IMG/VR virus record: IMGVR_UViG_3300001419_002029
Coordinates: 1 to 26,366 of that record
Source of the DNA: a virus
Strand: one strand, 5' to 3'
DNA length: 26,366 bases
The notes beneath the pieces are model-generated. The model did no database searches, was not told where the DNA came from, and saw only the letters and a list, made by a program, of their open reading frames with translations. Positions 1 through 26,366 of this stretch are shown piece after piece. Made by a program: the position numbers and the translations under genes. How positions within the stretch are numbered: position 1 is the first letter of the stretch; each line of letters opens with the position of its first letter.

Positions 1-57
1 GGAACTCCTGCCTCTAGATGGGTTAAGAGGGCTATCCGTAAACTCGAAGCAGAGTAA
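1..57 (+). CDS. C-terminal end of a plus-strand gene cut by the window edge (tentative)
   Basis: Frame 1 is open from the first base to a TAA at 55-57 and reads GTPASRWVKRAIRKLEAE. The tail is basic and amphipathic, and its codons (CTC GAA, GCA GAG) look like those of the other genes here. It would be the 3' end of a gene entering from the left, converging on the minus-strand replication operon. Against it: only 18 codons are visible, and one other plus frame and one minus frame are also open over this stretch. No function can be assigned. Confidence 0.35.
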   Translation, partial: GTPASRWVKRAIRKLEAE

Positions 58-100
58 AAATACAGATAGAAACAGATAAAATACAGATAGAATACAGATA
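56..100. repeat. Left iteron array and left arm of 45-bp inverted repeat
   Basis: Four copies of ACAGATA lie at 62-68, 72-78, 83-89 and 94-100, spaced 10, 11 and 11 bp, which is close to one DNA helical turn. The array begins at the stop codon of the partial plus-strand gene. Its reverse complement matches 285-329 except for one-base shifts and one or two substitutions. Confidence 0.85.
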
Positions 101-128
101 CTAAATACTTTTATACGTTCGCTACTGT

Positions 129-163
129 GGGCTCGATGTACTATTCTAGGGTACTTCGGGCCT
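129..163 (+). terminator. Imperfect hairpin, possible plus-strand terminator
   Basis: GGGCTCGATGTAC (129-141) can pair with GTACTTCGGGCCT (151-163) over 13 positions with two mismatches and one G-T pair, leaving a 9-nt loop. The 3' side continues as CTTCTTT, which is a weak U-rich tail. It would end transcription from a plus-strand gene stopping at 57. It could equally be a structural element of the origin-like region. Confidence 0.3.
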
Positions 164-251
164 CTTCTTTGCTAGTATAATATAAATACCCCCCTCTATT
201 TATATACTTCTTATAAAAACTACTCTATATCTGTTAAATATTGGTACTTTG

Positions 252-268
252 TCCCCTAACGTAGGGGA
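252..268. repeat. Perfect 7-bp inverted repeat in AT-rich core
   Basis: TCCCCTA (252-258) and TAGGGGA (262-268) are exact reverse complements around ACG. The GC-rich palindrome stands out in an AT-rich stretch, 16 bp before the right iteron array. It has no U-tract, so it is more likely a protein-binding or structural site than a terminator. Confidence 0.6.
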
Positions 269-284
269 TTATAGGATATTTGGG

Positions 285-343
285 TATCTGTTTTCATCTG
301 TATTTTATCTGTATTCTATCTGTATTTTTCATTACCGATCTGT
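285..343. repeat. Right iteron array (inverted) plus one extra unit
   Basis: TATCTGT or a one-base variant occurs at 285-291, 295-301 (CATCTGT), 306-312, 317-323 and 337-343 (GATCTGT). Spacings are 10, 11, 11 and 20 bp. The orientation is opposite to the array at 56-100, and the first 45 bp mirror that array almost exactly. Confidence 0.85.
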
Positions 344-429
344 ATTTTTTATTAGATTCGAGGTGTACTGGTTTATTTTTCTTACTGGTTATCAAGTATG
401 ACTTTATTTATATCGAAGATTCTAAACGC

Positions 430-460
430 AAAAAGAGCCCAGAGATAACTCCGAGCCCTT
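430..460 (-). terminator. Intrinsic terminator of the replication operon
   Basis: Read on the minus strand, AAGGGCTCGGAG (460-449) pairs with CTCTGGGCTCTT (444-433) as a 12-bp stem, counting G-U pairs, with a 4-nt loop. A run of Ts follows (complement of the A run at 430-434). It lies 54 bp past the helicase stop codon, where a terminator for the minus-strand operon is expected. Confidence 0.8.
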
Positions 461-513
461 AAGCCTATAACATTCATTCAATCAACTCGATATAAGTATA
501 CTGTATTCTAAGA

Positions 514-1785
514 TTACTTCCTAATATAAACTCGAGATCCATCCTTATTGATCTGTTTGTATCCGGATTCCTTCGCTATCTTCATAATCCTTCTAGCGTT
601 CCCAGTATGCTGCTGATTGATTGGAAGATCTAAGAACTCCATAATCTCCGCGCTTGTATTCTGTCCACTAAGTAGAGCTTCTCTTACTCGGATAGTCCAA
701 GGATCATCGATTATATAAGCCTGCTGCAGCTCGCTTAACATTCTTTGAGATTCCCATTCTAGATGGAAGATGCTCTCCGGCTCTCGATAGGCTGCAAGGG
801 CTTCCGCGAAGAGTTGCTCTCTCCATGCTTTTATGTATCCTTGATCTATCTGGCCTGTGCAGGTGATAGGCCATACTCTTCTCTCCGGGCCATCTGTTAA
901 AAACTGATAGTTATTCGAAGTACCAGCGAACACTACTCTCCGGAGATAACTCTTTGGGAACTGTTGATAAGCAGGCCTAAATTTATCCTCACTTGAGGAG
1001 ATGAAAGCCTTAAAGTTATCCGCAGTCTTACCGCTTAGAGAGTGTAGCTCCGCGAGTTCCCAGAGCCAAGTTTCTGTAGAATGGATTAACTCGAGAGAGT
1101 CCTTCTTAGCGATATCGAGATTACTATCGGAGAACCACTGCGAGCCTACGAGATTCCTTAGTCCTGTACTCTTTCCGAGTCCTTTCTCACCGCAGAGGAT
1201 AAGGAAGGTATCCATTTTACACCCCGGATCCAATGCTCTAGCGACTAGAGAGATAAACCACTTCGAGGACATCTCTTCTATAATCTGATCGCTACCGGGT
1301 ACTCTCTCCGCTCGGAATACATTATGGAAAAAAGAATGGATTCTCTCTGCTCCATCCCACTCCGGAAGGGCCTCGAGCCAATCCTTAATCCTTTCCTCGA
1401 GATTCTGATGGGCTACTCTAAGAACTGCTCTCTTAATATCTGCAGAAGGATATTTTATTCGATAGCATCTCTCGATATGTAATCCTATCTCCTCGAGATC
1501 TGGATCCCATAACTCTCTATCGTTCCACTTAACCTTGTTCGCGTGGTCATTGTAACAGAGCGAAGTAAAGAGAGGATCGTTCTCTAAGATTAGGGCTATG
1601 TTATTTCGATTGGCATATGGCCTCGGAGGCTTGGTTAACTCTCCATCCTTATCGTACTTCGCTTCGCTCTTCTGTAGAAGATCCCAAGTATCGATATCTG
1701 CACCTTCTGGAGCGTGTTTATATTCTGCATCGATTCCCATCTGCTTAGCGAGTTCTAACATCTTCTTCATTGTTTCCTGGTTCAT
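514..1785 (-). CDS. VirE-family P-loop replicative helicase
   Basis: This is a VirE/VapE-type ATPase (423 aa), the helicase half of many phage and mobile-element primase-helicases. The entry motif EWDGAERI is at 142-149. Walker A GEKGLGKST is at 199-207, the acidic Walker B-like WELAEL at 242-247, a polar sensor strand FAGTSNN at 286-292, and an arginine-finger motif GPERRVWPI at 299-307. No primase domain precedes it; residues 1-60 are a short hydrophilic lead. The primase is instead encoded separately at 2661-3506, so the pair probably acts together at the replication fork. The start overlaps the upstream stop as TAATG, behind GAGGAGG. It is the last gene before the terminator at 430-460. 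Family assignment is firm; the partnership with the primase is inferred. Confidence 0.92.
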   Translation of the reverse strand: MNQETMKKMLELAKQMGIDAEYKHAPEGADIDTWDLLQKSEAKYDKDGELTKPPRPYANRNNIALILENDPLFTSLCYNDHANKVKWNDRELWDPDLEEIGLHIERCYRIKYPSADIKRAVLRVAHQNLEERIKDWLEALPEWDGAERIHSFFHNVFRAERVPGSDQIIEEMSSKWFISLVARALDPGCKMDTFLILCGEKGLGKSTGLRNLVGSQWFSDSNLDIAKKDSLELIHSTETWLWELAELHSLSGKTADNFKAFISSSEDKFRPAYQQFPKSYLRRVVFAGTSNNYQFLTDGPERRVWPITCTGQIDQGYIKAWREQLFAEALAAYREPESIFHLEWESQRMLSELQQAYIIDDPWTIRVREALLSGQNTSAEIMEFLDLPINQQHTGNARRIMKIAKESGYKQINKDGSRVYIRK

Positions 1786-2054
1786 TACTTCCCCTCCTCT
1801 AATCGTTTTACTGCGTACTCATAATCTTTTATACAGGCTGCAATCGCTTCGATAATCAAACCATCGAAGGAATCTTTATCTCCCTCTTGTACCTTATTCA
1901 TAACTTCGCAAAGGATAACGAGATTATCCAATCGAGGTCTAAAGGTGTTTGTAGTCTGTAAGGTTCGATAGTTGATACCGGTTACCTCTGCGAGATACTT
2001 TCTAGTAATCTCTAGCTCTGCAGCCTTCATTTTTAACCATTCATTAAAGATCAT
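1785..2054 (-). CDS. Small XRE-like HTH protein, tandem paralogue A
   Basis: This 89-aa protein opens with MIFNEWLKMK, followed by a helix-turn-helix (about residues 16-45, TRKYLAEVTGINYRTLQ) and a helical C-terminal tail ending in RLEEGK. It aligns without gaps to the product of the next gene upstream (2051-2323) at roughly 45% identity by hand count, so the two arose by tandem duplication. It is coupled to its neighbours by ATGA upstream and TAATG downstream, with a GAGGTG ribosome site. It probably binds DNA, perhaps as a homo- or heterodimer with its paralogue. It could be a repressor or a helicase/primase accessory factor. The turn is less canonical than in textbook Cro/CI proteins. Confidence 0.8.
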   Translation of the reverse strand: MIFNEWLKMKAAELEITRKYLAEVTGINYRTLQTTNTFRPRLDNLVILCEVMNKVQEGDKDSFDGLIIEAIAACIKDYEYAVKRLEEGK

Positions 2055-2323
2055 CTCTTCACCTCTTCGAGTCTTTCCATAGCGAAGCGATACTCTCTGC
2101 TAGATACTCTAATCGCTTCCAATATGAGAGCATCGAGAGAAGATTGATCTCCTCCTTGCTCTTCGTTTAGTACCTCACACACTAGCACAAGATTAACGAG
2201 TCTAGGTTGGAACTTTTTAGATAGAGATATACTCGAGTAGCATATCCCGGAGATATCGCAGAGATGCCTCCTAGTGATAGATAATTGCTCTATCTTGCTT
2301 TGAACCCATTTATTAAAATACAT
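2051..2323 (-). CDS. Small XRE-like HTH protein, tandem paralogue B
   Basis: This 90-aa protein is the sister of the product of 1785-2054. It shares the opening MYFNKWVQSK, the ITRRHLCDISGICYSSIS HTH, the PRLxNLVxxCEV helix and the RLEE tail. Two Cys residues, at positions 22 and 28, are not matched in paralogue A. It starts behind a perfect GGAGGTACAA site and overlaps the following gene by four bases. The shared opening M-x-F-x-x-W-[VL] also appears in the HTH gene beside the large terminase (24743-24979), which links three genes into one paralogue family. A DNA-binding role is inferred from fold and context. Confidence 0.8.
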   Translation of the reverse strand: MYFNKWVQSKIEQLSITRRHLCDISGICYSSISLSKKFQPRLVNLVLVCEVLNEEQGGDQSSLDALILEAIRVSSREYRFAMERLEEVKR

Positions 2324-2343
2324 TTGTACCTCCGTATTTTTTG

Positions 2344-2664
2344 TTATTTGGGATTGTTGTTATCGTTTATTTTCTCTTTGTATCGGAGCCTTCTATCTGC
2401 GAACATATGCTCACTCATTACAGATAAGCCTCCTATTAGATTGATCTGGAACTCCTCTCGACTATCCGAGATTACTTCGATTAAGGCTATGTATCTATCG
2501 ATCTTCGGATATCTGGATCCGGTTAGATAGATTCTTAAAGTCTGCTTCGAGATTCCTGTTTTAAGGGCTACATCTTTGAGTGTTAGATTCTTACGCTCTG
2601 CAGCTCTAAAGATAAACATTCCGAAGGGAGTACACCCCTTAGGGATTACTTCTTTGTAAGTCAT
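2344..2664 (-). CDS. XRE-type HTH protein
   Basis: A 106-aa protein with a clear helix-turn-helix in its middle part (NLTLKDVALKTGISKQTLR), followed by YLTGSRYPKIDRYIAL, the usual final helices of an XRE domain. The C-terminus is polar and Asn-rich. The longer reading frame reaches 2700, but the start at 2664 is preferred. Its ATG overlaps the primase stop as ATGA, and a GGAGG lies 10 nt upstream. It is a third HTH protein between the primase and helicase genes, only distantly similar to the two that follow. It is probably a transcription regulator or a replication accessory DNA binder; the target is unknown. Confidence 0.8.
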   Translation of the reverse strand: MTYKEVIPKGCTPFGMFIFRAAERKNLTLKDVALKTGISKQTLRIYLTGSRYPKIDRYIALIEVISDSREEFQINLIGGLSVMSEHMFADRRLRYKEKINDNNNPK

Positions 2665-3506
2665 TGTATCAAGTCCTCCAATCTTCCCCACCATCCACAC
2701 TTATTAGCGCGGTTACAATGAGGCCATAAAACAGAATGAGGAAGATAAGGATCTATTGAGAAGTAGACTTCATCTTTACCGCAGGAAGGGCAAGTTACAT
2801 TCCTTGCGATATTCCCATCTATGCTAGCCCCTATCCGGTTCGCTATCTTCATTCTAAAATCTAGATTGTGGAATAATCCCTCTACTCCGATCTTAGCTCC
2901 TGCCTTCCTTGACTTCCATCGTTCATATCTTTTCTTCGGCTCTTCCTTTGGAATATGGGAATAATCCAATCTTAAAAGACCCTTTCCTTTATGGGCTGCA
3001 GTAGATTGAAGATCCTTGTCTTTTCGCTCCGGGTATGCAAAACGATAATACATTCTAGCGCAATCCGTTAGAGCGTTAGAATCTGGCTCTCCCTCTCCAA
3101 TAGTATTATCCCATAGTTCCTTCGCTGCCTTCGCTGCTCTCTTCCAATCGATAGCAGGAATAGGCTCCTCGAGAGGAAGGATAATCCTCCACTTGTGGAT
3201 CTCTTCGGAATGAGAGAAGGAGGTATGGGCTATGTAATGATACTTAGAAAAACTGTATCGATGGCCCCAGTCCGTACCATCATCCATATCGAATACTAAG
3301 CAGGAGATCTCGATAGCATTAACCCCGCTTCGATTCCCGTTAAAGGTAGTAGGACTCCAGAGAGGGAGGCTTCCTTTCTCTCGTACTGGGAAGGGCTTCG
3401 AGGGCATCATTAAGGCCCGCGCTAGATTGCGGAGAGATACTTCTGCAGGTACTGGAATCCTCGTAAACTTATTCGAGAAGGTGCTTATCTTAAACTTCTT
3501 ATCCAT
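2661..3506 (-). CDS. AEP/PrimPol-type DNA primase with zinc finger
   Basis: This 281-aa protein looks like a stand-alone archaeo-eukaryotic-type primase. Catalytic-type acidic motif FDMDDGT is at residues 72-78. A strand carrying His/Arg, HKWRIILPL, is at 104-112, and a third motif, LTDCARMYYRFAYP, is at 146-159. These match the order of AEP motifs I to III. The C-terminus holds a zinc-binding module with Cys at 239, 242, 264 and 270. The frame is open to 3599, but the true start is 3506: AAGGAGGT lies 5 nt upstream and overlaps the methyltransferase stop. It should make primers for the VirE-type helicase encoded at 514-1785, normally fused to it in related systems. AEP assignment rests on motif reading only. 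Confidence 0.8.
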   Translation of the reverse strand: MDKKFKISTFSNKFTRIPVPAEVSLRNLARALMMPSKPFPVREKGSLPLWSPTTFNGNRSGVNAIEISCLVFDMDDGTDWGHRYSFSKYHYIAHTSFSHSEEIHKWRIILPLEEPIPAIDWKRAAKAAKELWDNTIGEGEPDSNALTDCARMYYRFAYPERKDKDLQSTAAHKGKGLLRLDYSHIPKEEPKKRYERWKSRKAGAKIGVEGLFHNLDFRMKIANRIGASIDGNIARNVTCPSCGKDEVYFSIDPYLPHSVLWPHCNRANKCGWWGRLEDLIQ

Positions 3507-3516
3507 CTTAACCTCC

Positions 3517-4146
3517 TTAAAATAGTTTACTTTGCTTCGAGTACTCTTGGAACCTCTTCGAAGTTTTCTCGAAGTAGTCTGTATCGAGTTCCCAAGCATC
3601 TAGATCGAATCCGAGATCGTAGCAAGCGCAAGCGATAGAACCGCTCCCTAGATGGGTATCGAGTATCTTATCTCCTTCCTTAGCGAACTTCTCTAAGCAC
3701 CATTTATAAAGAGGGATAGGCTTCTGCGTAGGATGAATCTTTCCTCCGGTTCTATTATCGAACTTGAATAGAGGAGCGGGCTTATTATAAGAAGTCCAGG
3801 CCATCTCCCACCCTGAGAAGTTCTCCCAAGGTTGTACTTTATCCCAAGCGATAACGCATCTCGTAGGAGGGAGATCGAAGTAGTTCCCACCCCAGATTAT
3901 TTGATTCTTGGATACTCGAAAGAGTTCCTCGAAGTACTCCGGAGGAGGAGCCTTATCCCATCTCTTAATATTCGTATCTCGATTAAGGGTTCTGTTCTTT
4001 AGCTTTCCCGATCCTTGGAAAGCAGAAGTAGTATTAACTCCATATGGAGGATCTACTATCGCTAGATCGTATTGGTTATCCTTCATCTCTCGCATTGCAG
4101 CTAGAGAGCATCCAAGAGAGAGAGTTATATTTGGATCCTTACGCAT
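3517..4146 (-). CDS. DNA adenine (N6) methyltransferase, beta class
   Basis: A 209-aa AdoMet-dependent DNA methyltransferase. Catalytic motif IV (DPPYG) comes early, in the context LAIVDPPYGV. It is followed by the HPTQKP signature and then the AdoMet-binding motif LDTHLGSGS near the C-terminus. The order IV before I defines the beta class, and DPPY indicates N6-adenine or N4-cytosine, most likely adenine. The frame extends to 4200, but the start at 4146 is chosen for its GGAGGGAAG site; it overlaps the RusA stop by eight bases. No restriction enzyme lies beside it, so it may protect phage DNA from host restriction or mark replicating DNA. Target sequence unknown. Confidence 0.9.
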   Translation of the reverse strand: MRKDPNITLSLGCSLAAMREMKDNQYDLAIVDPPYGVNTTSAFQGSGKLKNRTLNRDTNIKRWDKAPPPEYFEELFRVSKNQIIWGGNYFDLPPTRCVIAWDKVQPWENFSGWEMAWTSYNKPAPLFKFDNRTGGKIHPTQKPIPLYKWCLEKFAKEGDKILDTHLGSGSIACACYDLGFDLDAWELDTDYFEKTSKRFQEYSKQSKLF

Positions 4147-4579
4147 CTTCCCTCCACTGGTAGATAGAGAAGAGTGTATGGGCTTCCTCATCCTCTCCAC
4201 AATAGCAATCTTCTGCAGTAAGAGATACTACTCGGTTATCATCTATCCAGATCTCCGATTGGGTAATGCAATCGAGTACCATCTTAAGAAGATTATCGAT
4301 ATCTGGCTTCTTAGGCCTCCATATTCTACCATGAGGAAGGCTACCCTTCTTAAGGTGTAATCTCTTCGTTCTCGGATGCACAAAGGATACTTTAATCTTA
4401 AAGATACCATCGAGAGGAATCCAATCCTCTCCGGTTCCATCTTTGAGAGCCTTAACCGCTTCATCCTTATAGGTTCTACTCGTTTTCGGAGTGTATGCTC
4501 TTCCGGTTCGAGTTATCCGAGGCCTTCCCATTGCTACCGGAGGGCCTTGGATTATACTTTGATAGGCTAATTTCCACAT
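4139..4579 (-). CDS. rusA: RusA-type Holliday junction resolvase
   Basis: A 146-aa RusA-family endonuclease that cuts four-way DNA junctions. The family signature KPDIDNLLKMVLD is at residues 91-103 with metal-binding Asp93 and Asp95. It is followed by IWIDDNRVV with Asp113/Asp114. The N-terminal GPPVAMGRPR strand and the YTPKTSRTY segment are also typical. Length matches the family. The start overlaps the previous stop as TAATG. In phages RusA resolves recombination intermediates before packaging, which fits its place in the replication operon. Confidence 0.93.
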   Translation of the reverse strand: MWKLAYQSIIQGPPVAMGRPRITRTGRAYTPKTSRTYKDEAVKALKDGTGEDWIPLDGIFKIKVSFVHPRTKRLHLKKGSLPHGRIWRPKKPDIDNLLKMVLDCITQSEIWIDDNRVVSLTAEDCYCGEDEEAHTLFSIYQWREDA

Positions 4580-5082
4580 TATACTCGCTCCATCTCTAAG
4601 ATCTTAGAGAGTGTTAGATATTGCGCTTCCCAGTAAACTCCGTAAAGCATCTGACATAACCTAACTAGATATGGACAAGTAGGATGAGAATCTCCGGAGA
4701 TCCACTTAGAGATCGCGTTCTTTGTAATCCCGATAGTATCCGCTATATCTTCGATTGTAAAATCACTCTCGGAGATATCCTTCTGTATTACCCAAGCGAA
4801 CCTAGGATTTTTTATAGCCTGGTACTTCTCTCGAGCCCATGAAATAACGATAAGCGGATCTCCTGTATAGATCTCTCTACGGAGTACTAGCCCATTTATC
4901 TCTACTGTAGCCTCGTATACCCATGAGCAATAGATAGAGCTCCAGACTTTACAGAGAGAGCCTATCTTTCTAGATGGAGTATCATCTAAGAAGATGGGGT
5001 TAGAGGGTGTTCTCTTGTTACTCATCTTTCGGAGAGATGTTCTTCCATTCTCTTTAATGTAGTTTCTTCTGCGCTTATTCAT
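4579..5082 (-). CDS. HTH-domain protein of the early operon
   Basis: A 167-aa protein. The first 30 residues are very basic (NKRRRNYIKENGR), the middle is a mixed alpha/beta stretch, and a C-terminal XRE-like helix-turn-helix reads FTIEDIADTIGITKNAISK. The frame is open to 5115. The start at 5082 is preferred because it comes one base after the stop of a 34-codon gene (5084-5188), with a GGGGGTG site in front. It is probably a DNA-binding regulator or recombination accessory, since RusA follows directly. The middle region is not recognised. Confidence 0.75.
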   Translation of the reverse strand: MNKRRRNYIKENGRTSLRKMSNKRTPSNPIFLDDTPSRKIGSLCKVWSSIYCSWVYEATVEINGLVLRREIYTGDPLIVISWAREKYQAIKNPRFAWVIQKDISESDFTIEDIADTIGITKNAISKWISGDSHPTCPYLVRLCQMLYGVYWEAQYLTLSKILEMERV

Positions 5083-5083
5083 C

Positions 5084-5188
5084 TTACACCCCCACCGCAT
5101 AGCATAGGAGAGCATAAGTAGCGAAGATCGCAGAGAAGGCCCCAGTTACTAGGATATGGTTTATTATTTGTTCTTTAGTTGGTTTCAT
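5084..5188 (-). CDS. 34-residue membrane peptide
   Basis: A short gene that is easily overlooked. It has an ATG at 5186-5188 behind AAAGAGGTACACA, 34 codons, and a TAA one base before the next start. The product begins MKPTKEQIINH and continues as one hydrophobic segment of about 23 residues (ILVTGAFSAIFATYALLCYA), then VGV. It should be a single-pass inner-membrane peptide. It uses the same 46-bp leader as 5235-5594, which supports its being expressed. Possible roles are an early membrane-active or superinfection-related peptide; nothing in the sequence settles this. Confidence 0.65.
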   Translation of the reverse strand: MKPTKEQIINHILVTGAFSAIFATYALLCYAVGV

Positions 5189-5230
5189 TGTGTACCTCTT
5201 TGAGTGAATGGGGAGGAAGGCCCTCCCCGG
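5185..5230 (-). repeat. 46-bp direct repeat, leader copy 1
   Basis: Identical over 46 bp to 5591-5636. On the transcribed strand it holds a 7-bp GGGGAGG/CCTCCCC hairpin with a 5-nt loop (5210-5228), then ATTCACTCA, the SD AAGAGGT and the first start-codon bases of the gene it serves (5084-5188). No U-tract follows the stem, so it looks like an intercistronic RNA hairpin rather than a terminator. Confidence 0.9.
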
Positions 5231-5234
5231 TTTA

Positions 5235-5594
5235 TTAGTTAGTTTGTTTTTTTAACCATGTTTTTTGATCTTCTATTTCCCATCCATCATCTTTAAGATT
5301 AAAGTACTCTTCGCATAGGTCTAAGTACTCTTCTAGAGTAAGATTAAGTTCTGCAGCTGCTTTGATATCTCGCTTAAGCATATTGATATAATCTTGTTCT
5401 TGAGTTGTTCTTTCTTCTTGGTTTGCTTTTACAAATTGGTATTTCGAATCAATAATTTTTTCCATTTCAGATTGTACCGCACTGACTGTATCAATAGATA
5501 CATGCAATTGATACAAAGTGTATAATACCTGTTGTAATTTTTCGATTTGTTCGTTGAATTTGTTAATGTGATAATTGTATTGTGATTGTGTCAT
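5235..5594 (-). CDS. Small coiled-coil early protein
   Basis: A 119-aa, highly charged, Gln/Glu/Lys-rich protein predicted to be almost fully helical. Heptad-like patterns run over residues 8-55 and 60-100. No known domain is recognised. It starts behind an SD within the 46-bp leader, and a second copy of that leader lies just after its stop. The gene is therefore flanked by perfect direct repeats 406 bp apart. Its base composition is visibly more AT-rich than the structural genes, as expected of a recently acquired or early host-takeover gene. Confidence 0.75.
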   Translation of the reverse strand: MTQSQYNYHINKFNEQIEKLQQVLYTLYQLHVSIDTVSAVQSEMEKIIDSKYQFVKANQEERTTQEQDYINMLKRDIKAAAELNLTLEEYLDLCEEYFNLKDDGWEIEDQKTWLKKQTN

Positions 5595-5636
5595 TGTGTA
5601 CCTCTTTGAGTGAATGGGGAGGAAGGCCCTCCCCGG
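5591..5636 (-). repeat. 46-bp direct repeat, leader copy 2
   Basis: Exact second copy of 5185-5230, placed between the stop of 5646-5855 and the start of 5235-5594. It has the same hairpin (5616-5634), spacer and ribosome site. Only the last 16 bp (TCATTGTGTACCTCTT) also occur in front of 5646-5855, at 5853-5868. Confidence 0.9.
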
Positions 5637-5645
5637 ATTGATTGA

Positions 5646-5855
5646 TTAGTATTTTCCATTCATTTTTGACATAAACCATGATGGCATTTCGTAAGATACT
5701 CCGTATTCTTTTTGAGCATCTGCGAACATCTCTCTACGGAGTTTCGGATATGGTTCATAACTCCAACCGATACCACCCATAAAGAAATCTTCTGATTTTC
5801 TTACTTTAGGCCATACTACTTTTTCAAGTTCTTTGTAAAATTGTTCTTTAGTCAT
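5646..5855 (-). CDS. Small hypothetical early protein, first gene of early operon
   Basis: A 69-aa protein beginning MTKEQFYKELEKVVWPKVRK, rich in aromatic and charged residues, with no recognised domain. It starts behind AAGAGGTACACA and lies about 40 bp downstream of an extended -10 promoter (5895-5903), so it is probably the first early gene transcribed. It is AT-rich like its neighbour. The length and position suit an early host-interaction protein; function unknown. Confidence 0.7.
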   Translation of the reverse strand: MTKEQFYKELEKVVWPKVRKSEDFFMGGIGWSYEPYPKLRREMFADAQKEYGVSYEMPSWFMSKMNGKY

Positions 5856-5894
5856 TGTGTACCTCTTGTTTGTATCCCTTATTGGATATAAATA

Positions 5895-5903
5895 ACTATA
5901 TCA
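5895..5903 (-). promoter_or_regulatory. Extended -10 promoter for the early/replication operon
   Basis: The minus strand reads TGATATAGT, a TGN-TATAGT extended -10. A TTGATA lies upstream at 5926-5921 with a long 20-bp spacer; an overlapping TATGAT gives 15 bp. The region is AT-rich and no other promoter is apparent for the genes from 5855 leftward. Confidence 0.55.
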
Positions 5904-5955
5904 TAGTTTTCTATATTGTGTATCAATAAAATGAATCTTTTTTCACTTATTTTTA

Positions 5956-5964
5956 TGCTATAGT
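5956..5964 (+). promoter_or_regulatory. Extended -10 promoter for the plus-strand gene
   Basis: TGCTATAGT is an extended -10 motif placed 24 bp before the ATG of 5988-6515. It leaves room for a short leader carrying CCGGAGG (5974-5980). No good -35 is seen, as is usual for extended -10 promoters. It is divergent from the promoter at 5895-5903. Confidence 0.6.
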
Positions 5965-5987
5965 GCATCGACTCCGGAGGCTACGGA

Positions 5988-6515
5988 ATGAATACACAAT
6001 ACAGATTAAAAGAATCGGATCGATTATGGTTTGATTGGGTAGTACCTACTCTCGCAGAAAGATTTCCCGGAGAATGGATAACGGAGATTGGAACGGAGCG
6101 AGATCTTAAGCAAGGGATAGATTATACATACCTCGAGGAAGGCTCCCCAGAGGTAACGATATCCGCTCGATTATGGAAGAGTAGACCCGCTAGACACTTC
6201 GCTCTTAGATGGAAGAGAACAAAGTACCCGGAGATGCCTCTGGAGATTGCTTCTCGATTGGATTCGATAAAGAACGGAGGAGAGATCTCCGATATTACTA
6301 TGGAAGGATTCCTATACTCCGGTAAACTCTGGATGGCCATAATCGATACTCGGAGATTGTACTCCGCTATTGATGGGCTCGTTCCATTCCTAAGCGAGTT
6401 CTATGTAGAGAATACAGGCCCCAATGATAAGACCATATTCAAGAGAGCATCGTGGGATCTCTTCCAAGATGAGGAGATTGAAAGGATTATCCTACCCTTA
6501 CGAACTTCGCTTTAA
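5988..6515 (+). CDS. Unknown protein, only complete plus-strand gene
   Basis: A 175-aa soluble protein starting behind CCGGAGG with its own promoter. No family is firmly recognised. Residues 36-76 contain TERDLKQGIDYTY followed by strand-rich VTISARLWK and FALRWKR. A D-x-K-x-G-I-D turn followed by beta-strands with basic residues is reminiscent of the core of some phage PD-(D/E)xK-like nucleases, but the E-x-K pair is not in the usual form, so this is only a hint. The last 29 bp overlap the 3' end of the holin gene on the other strand. Its solitary reverse orientation suggests an independently controlled accessory gene, perhaps a regulator or anti-host factor. Confidence 0.85.
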   Translation: MNTQYRLKESDRLWFDWVVPTLAERFPGEWITEIGTERDLKQGIDYTYLEEGSPEVTISARLWKSRPARHFALRWKRTKYPEMPLEIASRLDSIKNGGEISDITMEGFLYSGKLWMAIIDTRRLYSAIDGLVPFLSEFYVENTGPNDKTIFKRASWDLFQDEEIERIILPLRTSL

Positions 6516-6804
6516 TTTCATCTACTATATTGAAGATATGCTCTATTTTTGTTTCTAGCATCGTTAACCGCTTATCGAGATCGTTTATCTCCGATACGAG
6601 TTCTTTTCTTATGGCATCTTCTCGAGCTTGCATATCTGATATAACTTTATCGTATCGAGCCCTTAGATCCTCTTCCTTCTTATCTTGCTTCGATTCTCTA
6701 GAATCTGCTCTCTTCTGGAGTTCCTTATTCTGCATGTATAAGAACATTCCGAAAGCGATATTAGCTCCTCCATTCAATAGAAGATTGATAAGCTCTTGTT
6801 CCAT
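6487..6804 (-). CDS. BhlA-like holin
   Basis: A 105-aa protein with one hydrophobic N-terminal segment (about residues 5-25, LINLLLNGGANIAFGMFLYM), immediately followed by a long charged coiled coil to the C-terminus. This layout is that of BhlA/UviB-type holins. It follows the endolysin with a TAATG overlap, forming a two-gene lysis cassette at the end of the late genes. Its 3' end overlaps the convergent gene 5988-6515, leaving no space for a terminator between them. Holin activity is inferred from topology and position. Confidence 0.7.
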   Translation of the reverse strand: MEQELINLLLNGGANIAFGMFLYMQNKELQKRADSRESKQDKKEEDLRARYDKVISDMQAREDAIRKELVSEINDLDKRLTMLETKIEHIFNIVDEIKAKFVRVG

Positions 6805-7382
6805 TACAGGCTCCAGGAAACAATACCGGAAGCTATCGCTCCTCCGATTGTCTTTAAGTGTTCGAAGGTAAGTAGATCTCTATGGGTATCCATAAAAATA
6901 GGTTCACAACAAAGAGCAATAGGTTTTTTTACTCCCTTGATTGTGTAGTGTGCATTTTTAGTCCAATCATTAGGAGAGGCCTTCTTAGGTAAACATCTAA
7001 CTAGACCCGGAAGAGATGCCTCTCTTAACTTATCACATATTGAACTTGCTAGAGTTACTCCTCCTGTACTTCCCATATGAAAGAAAGAAGCGTAATCTCC
7101 TCCACCTGCATTGAGATGTAAAGCGAGATAAACCTGCTTATCTTGTGGAAATTTTTTTGAATACTCATTCACTCTATTGTGTCTTTCTGAATATTTCCCA
7201 TCTCCAATGGGCATAACCTTAACACCATGCTCTAATAGTTTCTCCTCTATCATCAGAGAGAGATAACCTGTATAGATTGCTTCCATACCATTAGCGAAAG
7301 CAGGGCAAGGACTAGCCTCCGCTCCTCTTGCGTTTATTCTGTGGATCTGGCCTGCATGTTGTCTATCTAAATATACTATCAT
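6804..7382 (-). CDS. N-acetylmuramoyl-L-alanine amidase (Amidase_3) endolysin
   Basis: A 192-aa zinc amidase that should cut the bond between MurNAc and the peptide stem. The N-terminal strand YLDRQHAG supplies His9, Glu34 is in GMEAIYT, and His89 is in LALHLNAGG; these are the usual three zinc ligands. CCEPIFM gives Glu160 as likely catalytic acid. It is a single catalytic domain with no signal peptide or wall-binding domain. It therefore probably depends on the holin encoded next (6487-6804) to reach the wall. An AGAGGTA site lies upstream. Confidence 0.88.
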   Translation of the reverse strand: MIVYLDRQHAGQIHRINARGAEASPCPAFANGMEAIYTGYLSLMIEEKLLEHGVKVMPIGDGKYSERHNRVNEYSKKFPQDKQVYLALHLNAGGGDYASFFHMGSTGGVTLASSICDKLREASLPGLVRCLPKKASPNDWTKNAHYTIKGVKKPIALCCEPIFMDTHRDLLTFEHLKTIGGAIASGIVSWSL

Positions 7383-7424
7383 AATGCTACTATACCTCTG
7401 AAAATAGAGAAAGATGGGAAAGTA

Positions 7425-9128
7425 TTAATCTCGGATGGTTACTAGAGGATTATCTTCGATATGGAGTACGTATCTCCATCGGTTATCGCTCCAAGATTTC
7501 GCTACGATCTGACACTTATGGTTTGAGAATCCGACTTTCTCCGAAGAGATAGAAACAATATCTCCGAGATCCAGATATCCATACTTTGGAGCTGCAGAGA
7601 TCTCGATAGCGTAGTTCCCTAGAGCATGGGCTCGAATCTTATCTCTCGCTATTCTTATCGCAGTCTGTAGATCGTAAACGAAAGGAGCTTCTACGACCTT
7701 CTCTCGAAGTCCGTAGCGAGTATAAGATATATAAGCGAGGGGATCTCTATACTTAAGAGGCTCATCTTCTTTAAGTAAAGGATCTATAACTACCTTAGAT
7801 CGATAAGCATCGCTCTGGCCTGCATAAGAAAACCGGATAGTAATCTTATTTATAATCTCACTCTCGAGCGGAGTAAGTGGGCTAATAATCTCTAGCTCTC
7901 CACTCTCTATTAGATGATGAGAAGGGATAATCTCTTGGGAGTATGTATAGAGATTAAGAGCAGCTTGTATCCCCTTCCCTCCATTTACTACCATAATAGG
8001 AAGGAGATCCCATATATTACTCTGGATCCATTCGAGAGCGTTAACTTCTATATCGTTAACATACCCTCCAAACTTGTATCGATTGAGTACAGGAGAGAGG
8101 CCCTTCCATGATGAAAAATCAAAGAATAACTCCGATTTCTCCAGTACATAAAGGGAAAGATCCACCGCTCTCTCTATAGGCCCGCTTCCATCTATACTAG
8201 GAAAGCCTCCTCCAGATTGGCCCCATGAGGCATAATAAGAGAAGGATAACTCCGGACTCGATACTTGGAAGTTATCAAATTGTAAATTGGTTCCCTCTGG
8301 AGAGCCTACTCCGGTAATATAGAAGGGAACGTAAGAATGAACGAACCCCTTAGAATCTATCTCGATCTCTACTGGATTGGTAAAGGATCCTCCCTTACCA
8401 TCGAATATTTGAATATTTGATCCTGTATTAGGCCTTACTACCTCATGATATGCTACTTGGAAGTATTGCGTTAATAAGGTGGGAGTTCCTCCGGCTTGGT
8501 ATGCAGGAGTAACATGGAGATCTGTATCGAAAGAGATACTCCCTGCTTCCTCTCTCGCGCTTATTCCTAGAGTACCGAATACGAAAGGAACTACCTTACC
8601 CTTACTTTGTGTAATGATACCGATAGAATAGTTATCCTCGATTATTACGTGTTGCTCTCCTAAGAGCTTCACTACTCGAATATTAACAGAGTTCTCTATC
8701 GTAAAGGATACAGTACCCTTTGGAGAGGATGGATCTCCGAAGATAGCATCCAGTACTCTACCCTTAAAGATGCCTATCTTATCTTGCTGAGTAAAAGAAG
8801 TTTTCCCCTCTTTTATAATCACCATCGAGAGTTCGCATAGAGCATCGTTTAAAGTTCTTCCCTTAAGGAACTCCGATACCCAATCTACATTCTCAAAGAT
8901 GAGTTCCATCGAGATTGTATTGGCTTCTAGATCTACTCCGAGGAGATCGCTCTGGAGATTAACAGGAGGATCCGAGAGGGCTCCTCGATATGGGATTACT
9001 GTATTCTCTGATAAGTCCGATATATCGATGGGTACTGTAGAAAAACGGTATATCGCTCCATAATATGAGATATCTAAGAGGAAGCAAACATCTCCCTCCT
9101 CTATCTGTGATCTCTTGATTGTATCCAT
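7425..9128 (-). CDS. Tail-tip/hub-like minor tail protein
   Basis: A 567-aa protein dominated by beta strands, with no membrane segment. The C-terminal part (about 420-560) ends in a pattern typical of phage tail hub proteins, where a GYLDLGDIVSISSE strand pair precedes a short barrel-like tail. Position supports this: it follows the 1061-aa tail-tip protein with a TAATG overlap and precedes lysis genes, as hub or host-specificity proteins do in siphoviruses. Exact family not recognised; a gp27-like or tail-fibre-attachment role is possible. Confidence 0.7.
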   Translation of the reverse strand: MDTIKRSQIEEGDVCFLLDISYYGAIYRFSTVPIDISDLSENTVIPYRGALSDPPVNLQSDLLGVDLEANTISMELIFENVDWVSEFLKGRTLNDALCELSMVIIKEGKTSFTQQDKIGIFKGRVLDAIFGDPSSPKGTVSFTIENSVNIRVVKLLGEQHVIIEDNYSIGIITQSKGKVVPFVFGTLGISAREEAGSISFDTDLHVTPAYQAGGTPTLLTQYFQVAYHEVVRPNTGSNIQIFDGKGGSFTNPVEIEIDSKGFVHSYVPFYITGVGSPEGTNLQFDNFQVSSPELSFSYYASWGQSGGGFPSIDGSGPIERAVDLSLYVLEKSELFFDFSSWKGLSPVLNRYKFGGYVNDIEVNALEWIQSNIWDLLPIMVVNGGKGIQAALNLYTYSQEIIPSHHLIESGELEIISPLTPLESEIINKITIRFSYAGQSDAYRSKVVIDPLLKEDEPLKYRDPLAYISYTRYGLREKVVEAPFVYDLQTAIRIARDKIRAHALGNYAIEISAAPKYGYLDLGDIVSISSEKVGFSNHKCQIVAKSWSDNRWRYVLHIEDNPLVTIRD

Positions 9129-26281: not shown

Positions 26282-26345
26282 TATACTACCTTGGTTTTTT
26301 CTGTAAAAATTAACCCATATCAAAAAAAGTTCGCGGTGAGTGAAG

Positions 26346-26366
26346 AGATCGGAAGAGCACACGTCT
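26346..26366. other. Illumina TruSeq adapter sequence at contig end
   Basis: The final 21 bases, AGATCGGAAGAGCACACGTCT (26346-26366), equal the first 21 bases of the TruSeq read-1 adapter as commonly published. This is library sequence left in the assembly, so the contig is truncated here and no gene start should use it. Confidence 0.97.

Follow-up and report, generated by a model that had tools for sequence, protein, structure and literature searches.

In the replication origins of phage-inducible chromosomal islands (PICIs), including Staphylococcus aureus pathogenicity islands (SaPIs), two sets of iterons flank an AT-rich region in a pri-rep-ori arrangement, as described for SaPIbov1 and EcCICFT073 (PMC6092414). 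SaPI Rep and Cch2 are stated to bind iterons downstream of their own genes via a C-terminal domain (PMC7581432). Here we describe a locus that resembles the PICI origins in IMG/VR virus record IMGVR_UViG_3300001419_002029 (G000), of which the whole stretch of 26,366 nucleotides that was analysed is called the window. Two mirror-image arrays of short repeats lie within 57-343, directly past the 3' end of a replication operon and behind a VapE-type helicase gene. From sequence comparison, the most likely explanation for them is a two-sided, SaPI/PICI-like replication origin to which the adjacent helicase binds as initiator. Iterons combined with an AT-rich region are likewise a feature of lambda ori and of P4 ori1-crr, and the P4 alpha protein combines primase and helicase in one chain and binds the origin of P4 itself; the lambda iterons, however, are situated inside the O gene, lambda O is no helicase, and P4 requires two separate regions. 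Unlike the lambda type, with iterons within the initiator gene, the arrays described here are intergenic. The putative origin of SCCmec Cch2 is alike in that the C-terminal domain of a self-loading helicase binds short direct repeats located downstream of the helicase gene, and differs in that Cch2 belongs to the D5-like helicase family and has three 5-nt iterons only (PMC7581432). The features on which the argument turns are the following.

1-57, plus strand: 3' end of gene X, which is convergent with VapE and encodes a protein of about 110 aa lacking any Pfam match; the remainder is beyond the contig start
62-100, plus strand: VapE-distal array, four ACAGATA units (62-68, 72-78, 83-89, 94-100; steps 10, 11, 11), kept in relatives
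101-284, no strand: core between the arrays, candidate melting region, 74% AT at 161-240
285-323, minus strand: VapE-proximal array, TATCTGT (285-291), CATCTGT (295-301) and TATCTGT (306-312 and 317-323), kept in relatives
337-343, minus strand: outlying fifth unit GATCTGT, two turns (20 bp) beyond the VapE-proximal array
433-460, minus strand: intrinsic-terminator-like hairpin after the VapE gene and before the arrays (one found against a shuffle mean of 0.1)
514-1785, minus strand: proposed initiator, a VapE-type helicase of 423 aa with its VapE domain (PF05272) at aa 137-357
VapE aa 364-422: predicted winged-helix C terminus, with R398 in its third helix (AF2 model)

An earlier note on this DNA, made from its letters alone, had described four ACAGATA units facing an inverted copy with one extra unit, at a helical-turn spacing of 10-11 bp and in a position beyond the replication operon. 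These elements are all present, with the first unit starting at 62, steps of 10, 11 and 11 on both arms, and hexamer steps of 10, 11, 11 and 20 in the inverted copy when the outlier is included. A repeat search returned the arms 65-99/296-330 at 86% and 78-100/306-328 at 100%. The mirror arrays clearly exceed chance: positions 51-400 contain 83 inverted 7-mer pairs, against a mean of 6.8 and a maximum of 22 in 300 dinucleotide-preserving shuffles of 1-400, while the next best non-overlapping stretch of the record has 21 and 20 whole-record shuffles reached at most 21. A further TATCTGT occurs within the core at 228-234. The arrays occupy the intergenic gap in which X and VapE converge: the stop codon of X ends at 57, and the unit nearest to the VapE stop is 170 bp after it. 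The helicase gene closes an operon that also includes a putative primase, a methyltransferase, a RusA resolvase and helix-turn-helix (HTH) genes.

Conservation of the arrays and their spacing, which the earlier note had named as a check, is evident among relatives gathered by scans with VapE and terminase. The X-VapE intergenic region is the densest inverted-repeat stretch of the whole record in 14 of 14 records (whole or partial), and a search rule found arrays in 51 of 52 loci, although many array loci are near-duplicates and locus counts therefore do not equal independent events. The distance between inner units is near 195-198 bp in most loci, for a core of about 196 bp (193-200 bp in 29 loci and 201-210 bp in 11; 174, 184, 186, 188, 219, 109 or 283 bp in the remaining 11), and in L017, of the 201-210 bp group, the inner unit has decayed to TATGTGT. 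The unit itself differs by lineage: ACAGAT in the clade of the window, ACACTA with some ACAGTA/ACAGAA in another clade, and ATACAC, TCAGAT, TCACAC, CCAGAT, GCAGAT or GGGAT in others. Both arms share each lineage's unit, that is, they change in concert, and the 10-11 bp steps persist. The outlier two turns out is mirrored on both sides in L029, L030 and L035 (steps 21, 10, 11, 10 and 10, 11, 10, 21). One locus (L021:7231-7430) has a core of only 109 bp between intact arrays, with the AT-rich part missing, which may be a natural deletion or an assembly fault.

Two other elements proposed in the earlier note held up in part. The core is AT-rich relative to the record (64% over 101-284, against a record mean of 57%), only moderately so, and AT-richer stretches occur elsewhere in the record. 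The GC palindrome TCCCCTAACGTAGGGGA is real at 252-268, and its arms are kept in the close relatives L006 and L009 and imperfect in L004 and L008; it is not evident in more distant relatives and is not kept outside the window's own clade, and we have dropped it as a conserved part of the locus.

VapE is the likely binder of the units. It matches Pfam PF05272 at 200.4 bits (cut-off 25), and its AF2 (AlphaFold2) model has a mean predicted local distance difference test (pLDDT) score of 86.8, with 72-86 in the C-terminal blocks, where helices at 364-372, 378-384 and 395-406 are followed by strands at 409-414 and 417-422. Of the solved structures, the closest by a wide margin is PriRep1 with double-stranded DNA (PDB 7pds, 'Similar to D. 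nodosus vapE'; Z-score 30.3, root-mean-square deviation 8.2, 374 aligned, 27% identity), the shared fold covering model residues 31-423 and the next structure reaching Z 13.6; the same entry was matched by hmmsearch (1.2e-50, over profile positions 54-368) and Foldseek (9e-22), and the SaPI5 primase-helicase (7ola/7om0) matches at Z about 12, in VIA-align and Foldseek match lists that are dominated by the helicase domain. Since the sequence-profile match to PriRep1 ends at position 368, the predicted DNA-binding end has diverged between proteins of otherwise the same fold.

The predicted winged helix holds the VapE residue that best follows the unit. In a first comparison of 39 loci, from which L145, L170 and L177 had been removed in advance and in which a column was scored if it had no more than four gaps, column 398 was the sole scored column separating CAG from CAC units (22 R, 17 K). 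In a second comparison, in which L145 was scored as CAC (a miss) and L170, L177 and L193 were excluded, R accompanied CAG and K accompanied CAC in 48 of 49 loci. Labels were assigned by hand from the unit sequences, a mixed arm being given the label of its more frequent type; loci in which no array was found (e.g. L148, L159, L160, L163, L168, L175, L176, L219) were left unlabelled, and L156 was labelled CAG from its units though the strict array rule found none there. The best columns of the other proteins reach 34/42 (HTHc), 41/48 (primase), 33/40 (HTHb), 25/27 (p3), 31/36 (HTHa), 30/37 (RusA) and 34/43 (X).

Several observations count against a code at residue 398. L145 combines R with CCACAT, an exception to the rule; outside the label, L170/G013 has mixed units with K, L177 TGTCC with R and L193 GGGAT with R; and the CAC label is itself impure, with ACAGTA or ACAGAA mixed with ACACTA in the VapE-side arm of G002/L011, L013 and G011. 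A phylogenetic test found four label changes and concordance in 4 of 4 independent pairs (p 0.125), and with ten more loci and L145 as CAC, three pairs were concordant and one was without difference (p 0.25). When random labels were made to change as often as the real ones, some VapE column did equally well in 49 of 400 length-weighted trials, with 3 of 400 falling within residues 393-404, and in 1 of 400 uniform trials; a cruder null that left the number of changes unmatched, and which the matched null replaced, gave 209 of 400. The association is weakened because phylogeny-matched random labels can do equally well, and we regard the R/K code as suggestive.

The earlier note had favoured the small HTH proteins of the operon as binders, which the comparison does not bear out: among 49 array loci, homologues were not found for p3 in 22, for HTHa in 13 and for HTHb in 9, with the qualification that some loci are short upstream and that the iterated search may count unrelated HTH proteins as present. 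Not being found in every array locus, they were rejected, and the C-terminal winged helix predicted for VapE itself is the better candidate. It might also be that an origin at this site is read by a host protein or by a phage protein other than VapE, such as HTHc, the primase or the product of gene X, and that VapE is recruited later. HTHc and the primase were found in 42 and 48 of the 49 array loci and X in 45 of 51, and DnaA boxes (below) suggest that a host factor participates in some lineages; but VapE 398 tracks the unit better than the best columns of HTHc, the primase and X do, no copy of X was found in the available DNA of the array-bearing loci L162, L186, L187, L189 and L190, and a host protein as sole reader would be disfavoured by the unit switches between phage lineages. 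On balance we consider a reader other than VapE unlikely.

That the region is an origin is suggested by its position after the replication operon, by clusters of DnaA boxes in relatives, by the lack of a recombinase that an attachment site would call for, and by the PICI/SaPI-like plan (PMC6092414). Perfect DnaA boxes TTATCCACA number 39 in the 34.0 kb around the arrays, a zone that starts 450 bp out on the VapE side and extends 200 bp past the other side; the remaining 236.8 kb contain 18, and 12 of 37 loci have two or more strict boxes, all of them on the VapE side. Other observations weigh against an origin or against its link to VapE. Fewer than two boxes occur in the other 25 of the 37 loci, and no DnaA box TTATNCACA was found near the window's own array. 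The earlier note had made a GC-skew inflection at the arrays a criterion of its own, and this counts against it: none of 11 genomes has a skew extreme at the array, the detrended minimum being 12.3-14.0 kb away in 9 and 3.0 and 8.9 kb away in the other two. Skew may here reflect coding strand, because large genes sit on one strand. Another gene intervenes between VapE and the array in L005 and L011, and searching about 3 kb 3' of VapE revealed no arrays in the distant relatives L148, L159, L163, L168, L175 and L176. The two-sided initiator-binding origin of the earlier note thus stands as the best reading, on conserved arrays and spacing, and without the HTH binders, the conserved palindrome and the skew that had been attached to it. 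As separate observations, the gene directly after VapE in L005 and L011 reads like what we take to be a cytosine-C5 methyltransferase, the array in both remaining adjacent to X, and L160:6198-6980 has several DnaA boxes right after VapE, with no mirror array found before the end of that sequence.

Sites other than origins also carry two-armed or phased repeats. Around a crossover core, integrase arm-type sites of a phage attachment site (attP) take a similar two-armed form, and a location at the end of an operon would suit such a site; yet the tyrosine recombinase family PF00589 was matched in 0 of 20 records at E<=10 (14 of 14 control genomes were positive, and some of the records are fragments), resolvases/serine recombinases (PF00239) were matched in 0 of 14 at E<=1, and a scan of 84,980 species of bacteria and archaea detected only distant VapE relatives, at 23 loci, with best-segment identities of 27-43%. 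We have rejected attP as very improbable, there being no integrase or resolvase match, in a set where the window record lacks about 2 kb. A centromere-like partition site, read by a phage DNA-binding protein, would account for phased arrays of the sort familiar from plasmid partition; with ParB_N in only 1 of 14 records (G003:27856-28089, 45.3 bits), arrays that adjoin the replication operon in the compared records and DnaA boxes beside them in the 12 loci above, this too was rejected and is hardly to be expected. The setting between two convergent 3' ends, with the hairpin at 433-460, would be in keeping with an operator or terminator region, a role to which we attach very little probability: promoter-like sites are not above chance (1 found, 2.0 expected), and a terminator would have no need of two phased arrays with a conserved core length.

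We therefore return to the origin and consider it highly probable that a cos-ended phage has its replication origin at 57-343, where the VapE winged helix would bind the units, load one hexamer per array and open the core for bidirectional replication. The phage DNA, probably circular in the cell, would be bound by VapE from the adjacent operon at the phased units through its C-terminal winged helix, and one hexamer would assemble on each array, the opposite polarity of the arrays orienting the two hexamers oppositely. The core of about 196 bp would then be opened and the two helicases would depart in opposite directions, with the putative primase of the operon starting strands at both forks; in some lineages, host DnaA may assist via the box cluster on the VapE side.

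The resemblance to PICI and SaPI origins extends beyond the two flanking iteron sets. The site is directly 3' of a Rep/VapE-type initiator helicase gene, apart from the intervening gene in some relatives here. The C-terminal domain, which in Rep recognises the iterons (PMC7581432), is a possible further likeness: in VapE it is predicted to be a winged helix, with an association to the unit that is strong by count and weak under phylogeny. For EcCICFT073, replication of a plasmid has been assayed in a laboratory E. coli strain held at restrictive temperature (PMC6092414). Unlike PICIs, this group has its own terminase, capsid and tail genes and no detected integrase. One-turn phasing and a near-fixed core are further differences, and strict opposite polarity of the two arrays may be another.

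VapE matches were found in 558 phage and 99 plasmid records, from which 21 other VapE regions (19 phages, 2 plasmids) were sampled. In 12 of the 21, inverted 7-mer pairs in the 400 bp 3' of VapE outnumbered those of every one of 200 shuffles (L295, L297, L298, L301, L303, L304, L307, L308, L309, L310, L312, L314), comprising cultured phages, such as Bacteroides F2 (L295), Marinobacter PS3 (L297), Enterococcus phiFL4A (L307) and Streptococcus SW6 (L314), and a Komagataeibacter plasmid; two were narrowly positive (L310, 18 against 16; L312, 22 against 17), and in L300 the densest inverted stretch begins some 300 bp past that region. Two-sided iterons thus occur behind VapE more widely than in PICIs. 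In these other replicons, however, unit orientation alternates, with 3-7 switches in 11 of the 12, whereas in the present group a single switch was counted in 15 of the 19 loci sampled (exceptions L171, L177, L195 and L145; in L016 the 6-mer counted is not the array unit). The most likely view is that strict mirror polarity with a near-fixed core is the distinctive trait of this group, and that the origin itself is a VapE-linked variant of the PICI type. The origin of Streptococcus thermophilus phage Sfi21 was reportedly studied in older work; SW6, an S. thermophilus phage like Sfi21, shows the repeats. Among the titles and abstracts listed by literature searches, which extended to few subscription journals, none dealt with this phage group or with mirror arrays linked to VapE other than in PICIs.

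Because the arrangement is found in autonomous phages and, in looser form, behind the VapE of cultured phages and a plasmid, VapE may be its common cause. It is tempting to go further and to propose that the VapE class carries an origin behind its own gene, here in a rigid form in which a spacing of about 18 turns loads two head-to-head hexamers and R/K at 398 helps to set CAG/CAC, a generalization that we hold tentatively, as slightly less likely than not. If true, a self-loading helicase and its origin would be paired by a code that evolves and can be read, and the origins of hundreds of phages and islands could be found by means of it. Naturally exchanged unit/helicase combinations provide ready specificity pairs for studying how self-loading helicases find and open origins. 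Streptococcal vapE has been described as acting on virulence 'through an unknown mechanism' (PMC6813308); vapE would gain a concrete candidate role in replication.

The window belongs to a group of small, cos-ended phages that is uncultured and in which searches turned up no integrase. The record has its own terminase, major head and tail matches. At the DNA level, a comparison of window positions 1-8000 with 50,697 phage records matched two records through one 130-base methyltransferase-gene segment, and no cultured relative was found by terminase protein among phage records. The right end of the window is probably a physical, cos-type end of virion DNA, because end repeats are common to G001, G003, G005 and G011: GTGAGTGAAG, at 26336-26345, is identical to the 10-bp repeat that G003 carries at each of its ends, and variants of it occur in G005 and G011 (10 bp) and in G001 (9 bp). 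In G003 the small terminase gene is 1.3 kb away from the repeat end, whereas G001, G005 and G011 have it at a distance of about 60-100 bp. We take the last 21 bases (26346-26366) to be an Illumina adapter; read-through into an adapter at that position fits many reads stopping at one physical DNA end. Compared with G001, about 2 kb, including the remainder of gene X, are missing at the left of the window. End repeats of 127 bp (G004) and 123 bp (G012) were also detected, like those of circular assemblies.

The remaining features are neighbours of the helicase gene and one element of the core.

241-254, minus strand: core element GGACAAAGTACCAA, which recurs with variants in several relatives
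1785-2054, minus strand: HTHa, weak HTH match below cut-off
2051-2323, minus strand: p3, no Pfam match
2344-2700, minus strand: HTHb, HTH_3 match above cut-off
2661-3599, minus strand: putative primase, 312 aa, weakly identified (PHROG DNA primase, 4.4e-05), with a homologue in 48 of 49 array loci

Where gene X was found it is convergent with VapE in 44 of 45 loci and on the same strand in L170; it was not found in L193, nor in L162, L186, L187, L189 and L190. Within the cores, AAAGT[A/G]C or its reverse complement is present in 9 of 14 regions, in G013 outside the core, and CAAAGTACC or close variants recur in the cores of G001, G005, G011, G012, G014 and G015, inverted in G014.
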